Source of the DNA: Anaerococcus vaginimassiliensis
GTDB lineage: Bacteria; Bacillota; Clostridia; Tissierellales; Peptoniphilaceae
Reading direction: 5' to 3'
NCBI RefSeq assembly: GCF_900626155.1
Contig: NZ_LR130844.1
Span: 682,061-746,060, forward strand
Length of the DNA stretch: 64,000 bases
The translations under genes and the position numbers were made by a program. A model generated the notes under the pieces. The model made no database searches and had not been told where the DNA came from. It saw only the letters and a program-made list of their open reading frames with translations. The first letter of the stretch is position 1; every line of letters starts with the position of its first letter. Shown here piece by piece: positions 24,875-30,500 of this stretch.

Positions 24875-25293
24875 TGAATATGGAAGAAATATACAGTCAA
24901 ATAATATTAGATCATTCAAGAAATCAAGCCAACAAACACGACCTAGCTGATGCAGACATCAAAGAGCCAGGCCACAATCCATCTTGCGGAGATGAAATAG
25001 TTCTTCAACTAAAGATGGATGGAGATATAATAAAAGAGGCAGCTTTTACAGGAGATGGCTGTGCCATAAGCCAAGCTGCAACTAGCGTTATGTGTGATAT
25101 CATAGTTGGAAAAACTAAAGAAGAAGCGAAAAAACTTGCTGATATCTATGTTAGAATGATCAAAAGAGAAGAAGTAACAGATGAGGAGTTGGAATTATTG
25201 GAAGATGCAGTAGCCTTCAAGAATATCCAAAACATGCCTCAAAGGGTAAAATGTGCACTTCTATCTTGGAAAACACTAGATCAAACTATTTAA
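24874..25293 (+). CDS. sufU: Sulfur relay protein SufU
   Basis: 139-residue zinc-dependent sulfurtransferase that accepts persulfide from SufS. The ligands are visible: HNPSCGDE (Cys about 38, Asp about 40), GDGCAISQAATS (Cys about 63) and RVKCALLSW (Cys about 127). The insertion between the second and third cysteine, typical of SufU versus IscU, is present. Two start codons lie close together (ATG at 24874 and 24880); the first overlaps the sufS stop and is kept. Confidence 0.95.
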   Translation: MNMEEIYSQIILDHSRNQANKHDLADADIKEPGHNPSCGDEIVLQLKMDGDIIKEAAFTGDGCAISQAATSVMCDIIVGKTKEEAKKLADIYVRMIKREEVTDEELELLEDAVAFKNIQNMPQRVKCALLSWKTLDQTI

Positions 25294-25294
25294 T

Positions 25295-25474
25295 ATGGAT
25301 AAGAAAAATTTCGATAGGCTAGAATTTATAACAAGCTTAGTAACTGCAATCTTGCTTTTTGTTTTAACTTTCCTTCAGTTTAAAAAACAGAGAACTTTTG
25401 CTTGGCTTATCCTACTAGCAGCTATAATGATGGCTGCAAATGCCTATACAAAATACAAAAAATATAAAGATTAA
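25295..25474 (+). CDS. Small two-helix membrane protein at the end of the suf operon
   Basis: 59 residues starting one base after the sufU stop. Two hydrophobic helices (about 11-28 and 34-49) joined by a short basic turn (FKKQR) and ending in a Lys/Tyr-rich tail. No ribosome site is strong, but the spacing suggests coupling to sufU. No known family. The suf terminator follows at once, so it belongs to the suf transcript. Length and composition support a real small gene, but conservation must decide. Confidence 0.55.
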   Translation: MDKKNFDRLEFITSLVTAILLFVLTFLQFKKQRTFAWLILLAAIMMAANAYTKYKKYKD

Positions 25475-25482
25475 TGACTTAG

Positions 25483-25503
25483 CCCCTAGAATCTAGGGGT
25501 TTT
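25483..25503 (+). terminator. Terminator of the suf operon
   Basis: CCCCTAG (25483-25489) pairs with CTAGGGG (25493-25499) and is followed by TTTTATTTG. Confidence 0.85.
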
Positions 25504-25535: not shown

Positions 25536-25564
25536 TTGAAAAATATCATGAATTGTTTTATAAT
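25536..25564 (+). promoter_or_regulatory. Distal promoter of the thiamin operon (P1)
   Basis: TTGAAA (25536-25541), 17 bases, TATAAT (25559-25564). Transcription would begin near 25571, just at the 5' edge of the TPP aptamer. Confidence 0.7.
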
Positions 25565-25569
25565 ATAAG

Positions 25570-25655
25570 CAGCTAGGGGTGCAATTTAGCTGAGAGATGG
25601 AATTTCCATTAACCCTTTAAACTTGTTAGGTTAAAACCTGCGTAAGAAAGCTATG
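25570..25655 (+). promoter_or_regulatory. TPP riboswitch
   Basis: The THI-box sequence is clear: GGGGTGC (25576-25582), CTGAGA (25590-25595), ACCCTTTAAAC (25612-25622) and an AACCTGCGTAAGAAAGCT end (25635-25652). It binds thiamin pyrophosphate. Bases 25615-25624 (CTTTAAACTT) are the exact complement of 25665-25674 (AAGTTTAAAG), which includes the left edge of the following terminator. This gives an antiterminator: without TPP the pair forms and transcription continues; with TPP the aptamer holds its 3' part and the terminator forms. Confidence 0.93.
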
Positions 25656-25671
25656 ATTAAGTGAAAGTTTA

Positions 25672-25699
25672 AAGACCCCTAGATGGGGTCTTATTTTTA
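25672..25699 (+). terminator. TPP-controlled terminator
   Basis: AAGACCCC (25672-25679) pairs with GGGGTCTT (25685-25692), followed by ATTTTTAT. Its left arm overlaps the antiterminator described for the TPP riboswitch. Confidence 0.88.
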
Positions 25700-25702
25700 T
25701 GC

Positions 25703-25730
25703 TTGAAAGGCAATAGATAAACCCTATAAT
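25703..25730 (+). promoter_or_regulatory. Internal promoter between the two riboswitches (P2)
   Basis: TTGAAA (25703-25708), 16 bases, TATAAT (25725-25730). Predicted start near 25737, so this transcript would skip the TPP switch but still carry the element at 25753-25807. Confidence 0.6.
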
Positions 25731-25752
25731 TTAATAAACTTGTGATGATATT

Positions 25753-25807
25753 GGCACTGAAGGGGCATACCACCTCGGGTATGGTTGTCCTTTTTGTGCC
25801 TTTTTTT
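25753..25807 (+). promoter_or_regulatory. Terminator-embedded aptamer, candidate HMP-PP (thiS motif) riboswitch
   Basis: One long interrupted hairpin ends in seven T, 14 bases before thiS. Pairs: GGCAC/GTGCC (25753-25757, 25796-25800), AAGG/CCTT (25760-25763, 25789-25792), then CATACC/GGTATG (25766-25771, 25778-25783), with an asymmetric internal loop of GG against GTTGT. A plain terminator would not need such unpaired purine and pyrimidine blocks. Position before thiS and the compact terminator-embedded form match the published HMP-PP riboswitch class. The class call rests on structure and context, not on a covariance search. Confidence 0.7.
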
Positions 25808-25821
25808 GAGGGGGTGAATAA

Positions 25822-26019
25822 ATGCTTACTATAAATGATAAGAAGGTAGAGTTTGTAGAAAATGAAACTTTGAGAGATTTTCTTATAAGAAATAATTTTG
25901 ACCCGGATTTTTTAGCTTGTGAAGTTGACGAAAAACTTGTAAAGAAAATAGACTTTGAAAAGTTTATTGTAGAAGATGGATCAAAAGTTGAAGTGTTTTC
26001 CTTTGTAGGAGGGGGTTGA
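25822..26019 (+). CDS. thiS: Sulfur carrier protein ThiS
   Basis: 65-residue ubiquitin-like protein ending in FVGGG; the C-terminal Gly-Gly is adenylated by ThiF and then carries sulfur for the thiazole ring. AGGGGG lies upstream of the ATG. First gene of thiSFGHWME, directly behind the two RNA switches. The next gene starts two bases after its stop. Confidence 0.95.
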   Translation: MLTINDKKVEFVENETLRDFLIRNNFDPDFLACEVDEKLVKKIDFEKFIVEDGSKVEVFSFVGGG

Positions 26020-26020
26020 T

Positions 26021-26626
26021 TTGAGAGATAAAATTCTTAAAAGACAAGATTCATATGTAAATGAAATCTTAAAGGACGCCTCTGTATCCATCCTAGGTTG
26101 CGGAGGTCTTGGATCAAATATCGCCATGAGTCTTGCAAGGTGCGGAGTTGGAACTATCTATCTGTATGATTTTGACAAGGTAGAATATTCTAATCTAAAT
26201 AGGCAAAATTACGATCAGGATGATTTGGGAAAGAGTAAAGTACTTCAAACTAAAAAGAAAATTCATGAAACTATTCCTTACACCAAGATTTACGCTAATG
26301 AAGTTTATGTTTCTTTGGATAACCTAGATGAAATAAGTGAAAAGACAGACATTTTCATAGAAGCTTTTGATAAAAAGGAGATGAAAAGCCTAGTTTTTGA
26401 CTATTTTTTAGGGAAAAAAGACAAGAAATTAATTATAGGCTCAGGTCTTTCTGGTCTTGGAGATTTGGAAGATATAAAAATTAAAAAAATAGACAATGTG
26501 ACTATGATTGGAGATTTTACATCGAGTCCAGAATCTGGCTTGTACCTACCTTATGTAGGGGTTATTGCAAGTCTTGAGGCACTTTATGCTGTAAAAATAA
26601 TAAAAGGAGAATATGATGGAAAATAA
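26021..26626 (+). CDS. thiF: ThiS adenylyltransferase ThiF
   Basis: 201-residue E1-like enzyme that activates the ThiS C-terminus with ATP. The nucleotide-binding loop [21 protein letters not shown] (about 24-45) and [16 protein letters not shown] (about 50-65, catalytic Arg) are clear. It is the short form without the C-terminal zinc and cysteine part of MoeB-like proteins, as in clostridial ThiF. Starts with TTG at 26021, with GGAGGGGG five bases upstream inside the end of thiS. Overlaps thiG. Confidence 0.92.
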
Positions 26627-27386
26627 GGATTATTTGATACTTGGAGATAAGAAATTTGAATCAAGATTCATACTTGGTTCGGGTAAATACTCACCAGAAC
26701 TAATTGATGCTGCCATAAAATCAGCAGGATCTCAAATGATTACAGTGGCTCTAAGGAGGGCGAACACCAAAGATGTGGCAAACATTTTAAACTATATACC
26801 AAAAGATGTAACTATTATCCCAAACACATCTGGAGCAAGAAATGCTGATGAAGCCATAAGAATAGCAAGACTAGCTAGAGAAATGGGCTGTGGCAATTTT
26901 GTTAAAATTGAGATCATGAGAGATAGCAAATATCTTCTCCCAGATAATCACGAAACTTTAAAGGCAACTGAAGTTTTAGCAAAAGAAGGCTTTGTAGTCC
27001 TACCTTATATGTATCCAGATTTAAATTATGCAAGAGACTTAAGAGATGCGGGAGCTGCTGCGATTATGCCTCTAGCAAGTCCTATCGGATCTAACAAGGG
27101 TCTAGCTACCAAAGACTTCATCAAAATTATAATAAATGAAATAGATCTTCCTGTAATAGTTGATGCAGGAATTGGAGTTCCAAGTCAAGCAGCCGAGGCA
27201 ATGGAAATGGGAGCAGCTGCTATTATGGCGAATACAGGAATAGCAAGTGCTAGCGATATAAATATAATGGCAAGAGCCTTTAAGCTAGGAATAGAAGGAG
27301 GAAGACTAGCCTACCTTGCAAAGCCAGGTAGAGTTTTAGAATCAGGAGCAGATCCATCTTCTCCATTGAGGGATTTCTTTGACTGA
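26616..27386 (+). CDS. thiG: Thiazole synthase ThiG
   Basis: 256-residue TIM-barrel enzyme that assembles the thiazole phosphate from deoxyxylulose 5-phosphate, dehydroglycine and ThiS-thiocarboxylate. Seen in [12 protein letters not shown] (about 13-24), the substrate-binding lysine region [14 protein letters not shown] (about 96-109), and [32 protein letters not shown] (spread over about 187-218). Two adjacent ATGs occur (26613, 26616); AAGGAG is three and six bases away respectively, favouring the second. Overlaps thiF by 11 bases. Confidence 0.95.
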
Positions 27387-28545
27387 TATGAATATTAAAA
27401 GTGTAAATGATTATTTTCCAGAAATGGATATAATCGACTCAGATATAAAAGATAAGGTTAAGAATTCTTTCGAAGAAGTTAAGGAAATTGAGGTAAGCAG
27501 AGCGGATGTTATCAGCAGTCTAAAGGCATCTGATCTAAATGAGAGAGACCTTTACAATCTTTTAAGTGATACTGGCTTAGAATATTTAGAAGACATGGCA
27601 AGAGTCGCAAAGGATAAGAGGATAAGATATTTTGGTAATAATGTGTGCCTGTTTTCTCCAATTTATATAGCAAATTACTGTGAAAACTCCTGCAGGTATT
27701 GTGGCTTTAGAGCTAAAAGTGATATTAAAAGAGCAAAATTAACATACGATGAAATTGAAGAAGAAATGAAGGCTCTTGCTAAAACAGGCATAGAAGATGT
27801 TTTGATCCTAACAGGAGAATCTAAAAAATTTTCTTCTGTTGAATATATAGCAGAGGCTTGTAGGATTGCCAAGAAATATTTTAAGGTGATAGGTATAGAA
27901 GTTTACCCTGCTAATGTTTCTGATTATGAGATATTAAGAGAAGCTGGGGCTGATTTTGTGACAGTTTTCCAAGAATCTTACAATCCAGAAGTTTACGATT
28001 ATTACCATCCTTATGGGCACAAGAGAAGTTTTCCTTATAGGTTTGACACCCAAGAAAGAGCGTTAAAGGCAGGTTTTAGAGGAGTTGGATTTGGAACGCT
28101 TTTTGGACTTGGAGATCCAATCGAAGAGGCCTTCAAGCTTGCTATGCACGCAAAAGAAATTCAGAAAAAATATCCCCACGCAGAAATTGCTATCTCTCTA
28201 CCGAGGATTAGACCAACTCATGGAGCAGATGATAGTCTAAATTTTAATCTAGTAGATGATAAGAAGTTCTTCCAGATAATGCTTGCCATAAGGATATTTT
28301 TGCCATTTGCATCTATTACTCTTTCCACTAGAGAATCTAAGGACTTTAGAAATCTAGCTGTTCAATATGCAGCAACTAAGATATCTGCATCAGTCGATAC
28401 TTCTATAGGCCACAGGTCTAAGAAAAGTACAGATGAGGGCGACGAGCAATTTGAGATTGATGATTCACGTTCTACTAACGAAACTTGTGATGATTTAAAA
28501 GAAGTTGGCATGACTCCTGTATTTACAGATTACATCGACCTATAG
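27379..28545 (+). CDS. thiH: 2-iminoacetate synthase ThiH (radical SAM)
   Basis: 388 residues. Cleaves tyrosine to dehydroglycine and p-cresol, the oxygen-independent route to the thiazole precursor. The radical SAM cluster cysteines are in [10 protein letters not shown] (about 94-103, CxxxCxxC). The C-terminal part holds [24 protein letters not shown] and a region after SVDTSIGHR typical of ThiH. TTG at 27379 is preferred because GAGGG lies six bases upstream; an ATG at 27388 has none. Overlaps thiG by 8 bases. Confidence 0.94.
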
Positions 28546-28553
28546 GAGAGAAT

Positions 28554-29099
28554 ATGGAGAATAAGAAAAAAATACTGATACTTGTTACATTATCGATGTT
28601 TGTGGCAATCGGAGTTGTGATTTCACCTATCCTAAGATTTGAAGGATTCGCTCCGACAGCTCACTTTGTAAATGTAGTTTGCTCTGTGTTTCTAGGTCCT
28701 TGGTATAGTTTAGCCAATGCAATTATCACAGCTGCAATAAGAATGACCCTCATGGGCATACCTCCACTTGCTATAACGGGTCAAGTTTTTGGAGCTTTTC
28801 TCTCAGGTTTTCTGTATAGAAAAAGCAAGGGGTCAATACTCGCATGTGTAATAGGAGAGGTAGTAGGTACTGGTATCATAGGATCTATAGCATCTTATCC
28901 TGTAATGAAACTTTTGTGGGGAAAGGGAGATATCACTTGGTATTTTTACTTGCCAAGTTTTCTAATAGCGACTCTAATAGGTGGAACTGTTGCCTTTATC
29001 TTTCTAAAGACCTTGCAAAAATCAAAAGTTTTATATAAAATACAAGAAAACTTGGGAGTAAATGTCTATGAAAAATCTAAAGCAAATCCTAAAAGCTAG
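28554..29099 (+). CDS. thiW: ThiW, predicted thiazole transporter (ECF S component)
   Basis: 181-residue membrane protein with about five helices. SPILRFEGFAPTAHFVNVVCSVFLGPWY (about 25-52) and the MTLMGIPPLAITGQVFGAFLSGFLYRK block (about 63-89) are characteristic of ThiW. As a substrate-binding S protein it needs the shared ECF energizing module, which is not in this window. It is known from TPP-riboswitch operons and predicted to bring in hydroxyethylthiazole, which fits the kinase ThiM encoded next with a 38-base overlap. Confidence 0.9.
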   Translation: MENKKKILILVTLSMFVAIGVVISPILRFEGFAPTAHFVNVVCSVFLGPWYSLANAIITAAIRMTLMGIPPLAITGQVFGAFLSGFLYRKSKGSILACVIGEVVGTGIIGSIASYPVMKLLWGKGDITWYFYLPSFLIATLIGGTVAFIFLKTLQKSKVLYKIQENLGVNVYEKSKANPKS

Positions 29100-29889
29100 A
29101 GAAAAATTAAGAGAAGAAAGTCCGCTTATCCATGCCATAACAAACCCTATAGCCATAAATATGCTTGCAAATTCTATTCTTTTTTTGGGGGCAAAGGCAA
29201 TATGTGCAGCCCACCCAGAAGAAGTAAGTGAGATAACAAGTATATCATCATCTCTCAGTGTAAACCTAGGAAATATAACTAGTGAGAGAATGAAAGCCAT
29301 AGAACTTGCCGCATCTACTGCCAACAAGAAAGCTATACCGCTTGCCATAGATATGGTTGGGGTAGGATCTTCCACTTTGCGTTATAATTTCGCAAAGAAA
29401 CTCTTGGATACCAATAGCTTTGATTTGATCAAAGGAAACTCCTCAGAAATAAGGGCCCTTGCCTTGGGTAAATCTCAAGCAAAGGGTATAGATGTAGGAG
29501 AAGCTGACAAAATAGAAAAAGAAAATATAGGAAAAATTGCCGAAGAAGCGAGAGATTTAGCTAAAAAATATAAGTCTACAATCCTAATTACAGGAAAAAC
29601 TGACCTAATTGTAGGCTCTGACTCATATATAATAGTAGATAATGGAGTAGAAAACCTAAGCAAAATCACAGGAACAGGATGTATGCTAACAGGTATTATA
29701 TCAAGCTTTATGGCAGTTGAAGATCCTGTATCAGCAAGTGTTTTAGGACTTCTCATATTAGAAATTGCCGCAGAGATTTCTGATACAGATAGGCTATATA
29801 CTTTTTTTGTGAATCTTATGGATGGGGTTGCAACGATCAAAGATGAGGATATTATAAAAGCGGCAAAAGTAAAGGAGATTATATTTTGA
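29062..29889 (+). CDS. thiM: Hydroxyethylthiazole kinase
   Basis: 275-residue salvage kinase that phosphorylates 4-methyl-5-hydroxyethylthiazole. Family marks: HAITNPIAINMLANSILFLGAKAICA (about 24-49), LDTNSFDLIKGNSSEIRAL (about 115-133) and the ATP/anion-hole motif ITGTGCMLTGIISSF (about 203-217) with the catalytic cysteine. It starts within the 3' end of thiW, in another frame, with GGGAG upstream, implying coupled translation. Together with ThiW it recycles outside thiazole. Confidence 0.95.
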   Translation: MSMKNLKQILKAREKLREESPLIHAITNPIAINMLANSILFLGAKAICAAHPEEVSEITSISSSLSVNLGNITSERMKAIELAASTANKKAIPLAIDMVGVGSSTLRYNFAKKLLDTNSFDLIKGNSSEIRALALGKSQAKGIDVGEADKIEKENIGKIAEEARDLAKKYKSTILITGKTDLIVGSDSYIIVDNGVENLSKITGTGCMLTGIISSFMAVEDPVSASVLGLLILEIAAEISDTDRLYTFFVNLMDGVATIKDEDIIKAAKVKEIIF

Positions 29890-30500
29890 AAAAACTTTAC
29901 CTAGTGACAAACTCTGATAAGCATAGTGAAGAAGAATTTCTCCAAAGGGTAGAAAGTGCTCTAAAAGGAGGAGTCGATATACTACAACTAAGAGAGAAAG
30001 GAAAAACAGATATCGAAATACTGGAGCTTGGGAAAAAAGTAAAAAAACTTTGCGATTCATATAATGTTCCTATGTTAATAGATGACAAGGCTCACCTAGC
30101 GTGGGCACTTGGGGTTGGGCTTCATCTGGGGGCGGACGATATGCCAGTAGCATTAGCTAGAAAACTTCTAGGTGATAAGGCTATAATTGGAGCAACCGCC
30201 AAATCTGTAGACGCAGCGACCCTTGCTCAAAATGAAGGCGCAAATTACTTGGGAGTAGGTGCGATATTTGAAACTAAAACCCATGTCAAGACCAAAATAA
30301 CTAGTGTAGAAACCCTAAAGGAAATAAAGAAAAGTGTGGGTATAGATGTATACGCTATTGGTGGATTAAATATAGACAATGTCGATGTCCTTGAGAACTC
30401 CCATGTAGATGGAATCTGCGTTGTTAGGGCTATAATGGATAGTGATGATGTAGAAAATGACACGAGGAAGTTAAAAGAAAGAATAAATAAAATTTTATAA
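29886..30500 (+). CDS. thiE: Thiamin-phosphate synthase
   Basis: 204-residue TIM-barrel enzyme that joins HMP-PP and thiazole phosphate into thiamin phosphate. Motifs: GVDILQLREKGKTD (about 30-43), LIDDKAHLAWALGVGLHLGADDMP (about 61-84), GATAKSVDAA (about 100-109), YLGVGAIFETKTH (about 118-130) and IYAIGGLN-like DVYAIGGLN (about 154-162). Starts with TTG overlapping the thiM stop, GGAG eight bases upstream. It is the step using the ligand proposed for the second RNA switch. Last gene of the operon. Confidence 0.95.
   Translation: MKKLYLVTNSDKHSEEEFLQRVESALKGGVDILQLREKGKTDIEILELGKKVKKLCDSYNVPMLIDDKAHLAWALGVGLHLGADDMPVALARKLLGDKAIIGATAKSVDAATLAQNEGANYLGVGAIFETKTHVKTKITSVETLKEIKKSVGIDVYAIGGLNIDNVDVLENSHVDGICVVRAIMDSDDVENDTRKLKERINKIL

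Follow-up and report, generated by a model that had tools for sequence, protein, structure and literature searches.

A TPP riboswitch, a probable HMP-PP riboswitch and a promoter-like site between them in the leader of an Anaerococcus thiazole operon

The leader that precedes thiS in Anaerococcus vaginimassiliensis raises the question of how many RNA switches a transcript has to pass before it reaches the thiazole genes, and whether all transcripts pass the same ones. The locus lies in a stretch of 64,000 nucleotides of this genome, referred to here as the window, and a first-pass annotation made from the letters of the window had placed two thiamin-related switches in series in the leader, each behind a promoter of its own. 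In the leader of 286 bases, a complete TPP switch comes first and an HMP-PP element second, on the same strand and 5' of the first thiazole gene, with a promoter-like site between the two (Table 1). What we show comprises a covariance-model match for the TPP aptamer, evidence on the second element from conservation, covariation and neighbouring genes, and a contrast in promoters between stand-alone and tandem elements; the antitermination steps and the activity of the second promoter, P2, are what we infer.

The genes 3' of the leader were named with curated models as thiS, thiF, thiG, thiH, thiW, thiM and thiE. On the 5' side stands what we take to be an operon of the sufCBDSU type, ending at 25293, the last gene of which, the sole gene of that operon checked, matches PF01592. 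Directly 3' of the suf-type operon, at 25295-25474, inspection by eye showed a short open frame, about 59 codons long, with a hydrophobic middle. The same genome encodes ThiC and ThiD of the pyrimidine half of the pathway and ThiT for uptake, each adjoining a TPP match, and the matches at thiD and thiC score below the Rfam cut-off.

Table 1. Features of the thi leader and operon, in positions of the window
Feature	Position	Strand	Evidence
Terminator-like hairpin between suf-type operon and thi leader	25481-25501
Promoter P1, TTGAAA-17-TATAAT, 5' of TPP riboswitch	25536..25564	+	11/12 consensus
TPP riboswitch aptamer	25565..25665	+	RF00059, 64.7 bits against gathering cut-off of 54.3; full-length model match
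Probable antiterminator strand AAGUUUAAAG	25665..25674	+	read from the sequence; presumed function
Intrinsic terminator of TPP riboswitch, stem 25672-25692 and T-rich tail	25672..25699	+	stem also in computed fold
Promoter-like site P2, TTGAAA-16-TATAAT, predicted start near 25737	25703..25730	+	11/12 consensus
HMP-PP element (very likely), compact, terminator-embedded, just 5' of thiS	25740-25807	+
Putative P1 stem of HMP-PP ON state	25740..25761	+	25742-25744 with 25755-25757; 25740-25741 with 25760-25761 possible
Terminator form of HMP-PP element, stem 25753-25800, U tract 25801-25807	25753..25807	+	R1 89.2 bits (the window's own row belongs to model R1)
Conserved core GGGG-CAUACC-ACCUCG-GGUAUG	25762..25783	+	invariant columns, register, P2-hairpin covariation
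thiS	25822..26019	+	TIGR01683, 56.6 bits
thiF (family 2)	26021..26626	+	NF006395 and TIGR02354, above cut-off
thiG	26613..27386	+	PF05690, 331.6 bits
thiH	27379..28545	+	TIGR02351, 455.6 bits
thiW	28554..29099	+	TIGR02359, 133.4 bits
thiM	29062..29889	+	NF006830, 229.9 bits, above its cut-off
thiE	29886..30500	+	TIGR00693, 199.4 bits

The TPP riboswitch with a terminator that had been claimed for the first half of the leader is borne out by the Rfam match and by the terminator-like stem that follows it. The strand AAGUUUAAAG exactly complements positions 25615-25624 of the aptamer and shares three bases with the foot of the terminator. The TPP-bound aptamer would allow the terminator to form and transcription to stop, and without TPP the antiterminator would prevail; judged from these pairings, the TPP-dependent antitermination step likely works in the usual way. 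A P1-like site can also be read 5' of the TPP aptamer in the near relative L006.

Evidence on the second element comes from its relatives. Of 81 genomes searched, 31, the window's own included, gave a ThiS match, and among 30 loci that were read, 22 carry the same core 5' of thiS. Covariance models were built from 20 sequences of thiS loci (R1) and from 59 sequences (R2). In the class, 46 genomes out of 391 have a match to R1, representing 28 of 222 genera; in the genus the count is 21 out of 31, and the window's own genome has one element. By R2, the element is present in 32 of 130 genomes of the window's family and in 61 of 206 of the family to which C. luticellarii belongs. Across the 59 distinct aligned sequences, in counts made on model-fitted alignments, which favour the model structure, 94.4% of cells pair compared with 80.9% in shuffles and at most 59.0% in slid controls, and 133 cells are double-changed compared with 34.2 in shuffles, none of 500 shuffles being as high on either measure. 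The number of pairs showing a double change in these sequences is no better than in shuffles, 176 of 500 of which reach its value. An alignment made by MAFFT only was dropped, its 3' arm being misaligned. Because the element recurs 5' of thiS and its stem carries compensating changes, we do not regard it as a product of chance.

The gene context of the element is nearly uniform. The collection of 129 distinct elements derives from the ThiS search (20), the ThiW search (13) and the model searches (96) and is not a random sample; the nearest recognised downstream gene belongs to the thiazole branch in 126 of them (ThiS in 103, ThiW in 16, ThiG in 4, ThiM in 2, ThiF in 1, none in 3). Since ThiS or ThiW itself led to 33 of the loci, the fair figure is that of the elements from model searches, 93 of 96 of which lie 5' of thiazole-branch genes. 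Five of the 46 R1 hits (G337, G306, G227, G155 and G424) fall outside the collected set. Two copies of the element lack the GGGG strand (L194:901-976 and L195:901-975), one with a weak TPP-like match 5' of it, and no open frame longer than 70 codons follows them in the available stretch; both genomes have an intact element as well, and the copies look like tandems in decay.

The core of the element consists of the G strand of a possible pseudoknot, a hairpin designated P2 as in the published motif, and its loop, and the hairpin at 25766-25783 was also flagged by a terminator/hairpin scan. For the segment 25737-25821 the computed folding energy is -27.6 kcal/mol (z -2.78), and 4 of 200 shuffles are equally good. 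For the 34 nt 5' of the core, the folding energy is -1.3 kcal/mol in the window, compared with medians of -3.6 for the 26 tandem and -4.7 for the 96 stand-alone rows, and a value of -1 kcal/mol or lower is reached in 24 and 82 of these rows, respectively. In the thiW-type tandems L059, L072 and L121, CUUUUAUG 5' of the element and GCAUAAAA form a long P1 stem, unlike the short P1 stem of thiS-type elements.

The assignment of this element to a riboswitch class depends on how well it fits the published thiS motif, for which passages of Atilho et al. 2019 (PMC6478431) describe a conserved G24-27, a requirement of G26 and C35 for function, an unpaired loop at 35-39, and U46-49 opposite the G strand, with which they form a series of G-U wobbles in the terminator form. 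All 59 aligned rows have GGGG at 24-27 and C at 35, nine bases after the third G, and the loop at 35-39 and the 3' strand of the P2 hairpin at 40-45 agree with the published register except in L120, which is shifted and has a P2 base missing; the comparison is one with published position numbers. At positions 46-49 the window has GUUG, with two pyrimidines, and there are three or four pyrimidines in 32 of the 59 rows and fewer in 27. The aptamer is embedded in an intrinsic terminator, the stem of which is followed by seven T. As described in passages of Stav et al. 2019 (PMC6429828) and of PMC6478431, the stand-alone thiS motif shares this terminator-embedded layout, the register and the gene context, and differs in that the window's element is preceded by a complete TPP riboswitch.

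A further comparison was provided by thiW loci. A ThiW scan of named genomes gave 28 loci, none of them from C. lundense; C. luticellarii, C. bovifaecis, C. aestuarii and C. cadaveris are represented, as are several Anaerococcus. R1 matches 22 of the 28 loci, and four weak R1 matches with E of 0.14 to 0.86, lying on the opposite strand, were disregarded. By this model the element lies after a TPP riboswitch and 5' of thiW in C. luticellarii, where a small gene stands between element and thiW, in C. bovifaecis and in C. aestuarii, the same arrangement as that of the tested C. lundense thiW leader in the passages of PMC6478431 that describe it.

For the second element, neither the gathering cut-offs of Rfam 15 nor a limit of E up to 10 brought a credible match, any matches being at chance level, and in the scanned relatives Rfam 15 matched TPP riboswitches and one T-box and never the element. 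As the relatives that were scanned likewise have no match, the silence of Rfam is not taken as counter-evidence; the release seems to lack a thiS-motif family, and annotation from it would miss the class. The first-pass annotation had named such a search among its checks of the class, and the result cannot decide it either way, the relatives being equally unmatched. Its proposal that the element fits the HMP-PP class is nevertheless supported by register, covariation and thiazole context, and we conclude that the second element very likely belongs to the HMP-PP (thiS motif) class. HMP-PP is given in passages of PMC6478431 as the ON ligand of the thiS motif, and we infer the same ligand and sign for the element in the window. 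The claim that HMP-PP governs the transcripts of both promoters agrees with the layout; it had been made without a sign, which the published ligand supplies as ON.

Tandems of this kind have been described before. A TPP match lies within 450 nt upstream in 26 of the 129 elements. According to the relevant passages, tandems were described in 2019 as making up about 20% of thiS motifs (PMC6429828) and elsewhere as 30% (PMC6478431), the C. lundense thiW leader was tested as a Boolean NOT-A-AND-B gate (PMC6478431), and a 2022 review gives 131 tandem examples in a table and 28 in its text (PMC9481103). The TPP/HMP-PP tandem is neither rare nor new. The earlier claim of a rare tandem with an internal promoter thus fails for the tandem itself and seems to hold for the internal promoter, which is putative and occurs in one of 26 tandem loci. 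In the passages of PMC6478431, the C. lundense leader resembles that of the window in having TPP before HMP-PP, separate terminators, thiazole-branch genes and a predicted output of NOT TPP AND HMP-PP; the window differs in the promoter-like site between the switches, in a genus of the Anaerococcus type and in thiS as the first gene. The available text of PMC6478431 uses the word promoter four times and never for a site between the switches. That the leader is a tandem, whether or not P2 is active, we hold with high confidence.

The distance between the two switches varies within Anaerococcus. The spacer measures 179 to 324 nt in L007, L008, L009, L018 and L024, in which a repeat-like insert can be seen by eye, and 72 to 101 nt at the other loci of the genus. 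In L008 the insert seems, from the letters, to split the TPP terminator.

The site P2 sets the window apart from other tandems. Promoter-like sites before each switch, as had been proposed, were recovered at equal consensus scores, and the starts predicted earlier at 25571 and 25737 each lie 7 nt past a -10 box. The -10 box of P2 ends 31 nt before the GGGG core; in stand-alone elements the median of this distance is 29.5 nt, with 28 and 32 the commonest values. A sigma-70-type site of at least 10/12 within 95 nt 5' of the core is present in 79 of 96 stand-alone elements compared with 1 of 26 tandems, the single tandem being that of the window (11/12) and the next best tandems reaching 9. Fisher's test on this contrast gives about 8e-14 for rows that are related, 18 of the 26 tandems coming from one genus, and among rows from model searches only the promoter is found in 77 of 91 stand-alone and none of 4 tandem elements. 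The 129 rows divide into the 96 stand-alone and 26 tandem rows, six with a TPP match beyond 450 nt, none of which has a promoter of at least 10, and L058, with less than 450 nt of upstream sequence and a promoter of 10/12.

Several sequences were handled separately in this count. Dropped from it were L175 (40 nt upstream), L194 and L195 (no GGGG core), a minus-strand echo of L121 and seven duplicates; L019 and L022, with elements identical to that of L018 and no promoter in either, were left out, and the named Anaerococcus ThiW loci, most of them from genomes already included, were not added. L193, which has an altered core, no thi gene and no promoter, was kept. An Rfam scan of the 17 stand-alone rows lacking a promoter of at least 10/12 and of L194 and L195 for a missed TPP element found none.

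Whether P2 could have arisen by chance was assessed with shuffled sequences. When the 95 nt 5' of the core were dinucleotide-shuffled 5000 times, a site scoring 11/12 arose in 15 shuffles, and in 6 of 5000 if spacings were held to 23-41 nt; for a 60-nt stretch, 19 shuffles out of 4000 contained such a site. The chance of a site of this grade is therefore 0.1 to 0.5% in the spacer and about 3 to 12% over the 26 tandem loci. Eight sites this good occur on the plus strand of the window and none on the minus strand, in a stretch with far more plus than minus coding; five of the eight, P1 and P2 included, lie between reading frames of at least 100 aa. L010, of the same genus, has a stand-alone HMP-PP element 5' of thiS with no TPP match and with a promoter TTGAAA-18-TATAAT, and therefore both layouts occur within one genus. 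We regard P2 as a probable lineage-specific variant of the known tandem. A precedent of another kind is the adenine / T-box(Tyr) tandem, for which passages of PMC9481103 describe promoters before the first element and between the elements; like the layout proposed for the window it places RNAs in series with a second promoter that escapes the first RNA, and it differs in ligands, genes and organism. In the open-access literature searched, insofar as its text was available, no report of a promoter inside a TPP/HMP-PP tandem was found.

Three other readings of the leader were weighed against a two-switch leader with an active P2. An ordinary tandem transcribed from P1 only, with P2 a site that arose by chance and the published NOT-A-AND-B gate as its logic, is the most serious of these, and we consider it a real if somewhat doubtful possibility. 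The shuffles leave a chance that is small and not nil, 25 of the 26 tandem loci lack a comparable site, as does the near relative L006, and P2, a match to consensus, lies in spacer sequence rich in A and T and has a spacing of 16 and TTGAAA at -35, in a window where three of the eight best sites fall within reading frames. P2 nevertheless scores like the promoters of stand-alone elements, has the same hexamers as P1 and as the stand-alone L010 and L025, and stands at a distance from the core that falls between the two commonest stand-alone spacings. A more radical doubt concerns the second hairpin, which could serve simply as a backup terminator or could respond to some other ligand. The missing Rfam match and the weak P1 stem in the window species would suit such a reading, and other terminator-embedded aptamers exist, for example guanidine-IV (passages of PMC8632094), but a plain terminator is not expected to conserve a loop and a GGGG strand across genera, and the nearly constant thiazole context and the register published for the HMP-PP class make this reading very improbable.

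The remaining reading is compatible with the one we prefer. The window could show an intermediate in which a tandem is drifting toward a stand-alone HMP-PP leader, with P2 already driving much of the expression and the TPP switch becoming redundant. Both end states occur in the genus, and L010 carries the same promoter hexamers without a TPP match; against such a drift, the TPP aptamer of the window scores above the cut-off, and the reading is drawn from one genome of the species. We think it unlikely in this form. On balance we lean toward a two-switch leader with an active P2 whose transcripts carry only the HMP-PP switch.

Under this preferred reading, the leader would join two complete riboswitches in tandem, each acting by transcription termination. 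RNAs begun at P1 would meet the TPP OFF switch and then the HMP-PP ON switch, and as they have to pass both they would reach thiS only at low TPP and high HMP-PP. Transcripts from P2 would start near 25737 and retain 25740-25744, and hence the whole HMP-PP element and nothing of the TPP switch. HMP-PP would allow read-through of both kinds of transcript, so that the output would be HMP-PP AND (P2 OR (P1 AND NOT TPP)), with a baseline set by pyrimidine supply alone and an additional part repressible by TPP. In the same genome the pyrimidine branch would respond to TPP alone and the thiazole branch to TPP together with pyrimidine supply, and P2 would free part of the latter response from TPP.

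The contrast in promoters between stand-alone and tandem elements amounts to a simple rule, open to testing across the HMP-PP riboswitches as a whole. For the broader proposition, that a working P2 makes a two-layer circuit in which thiazole synthesis follows pyrimidine supply even at high TPP, and that the gain of a promoter is generally what turns tandems into stand-alone leaders, we see about even odds. If P2 is active, this Anaerococcus leader would have kept its precursor-sensing layer while being partly released from end-product control, and it would represent a natural intermediate between two known layouts.
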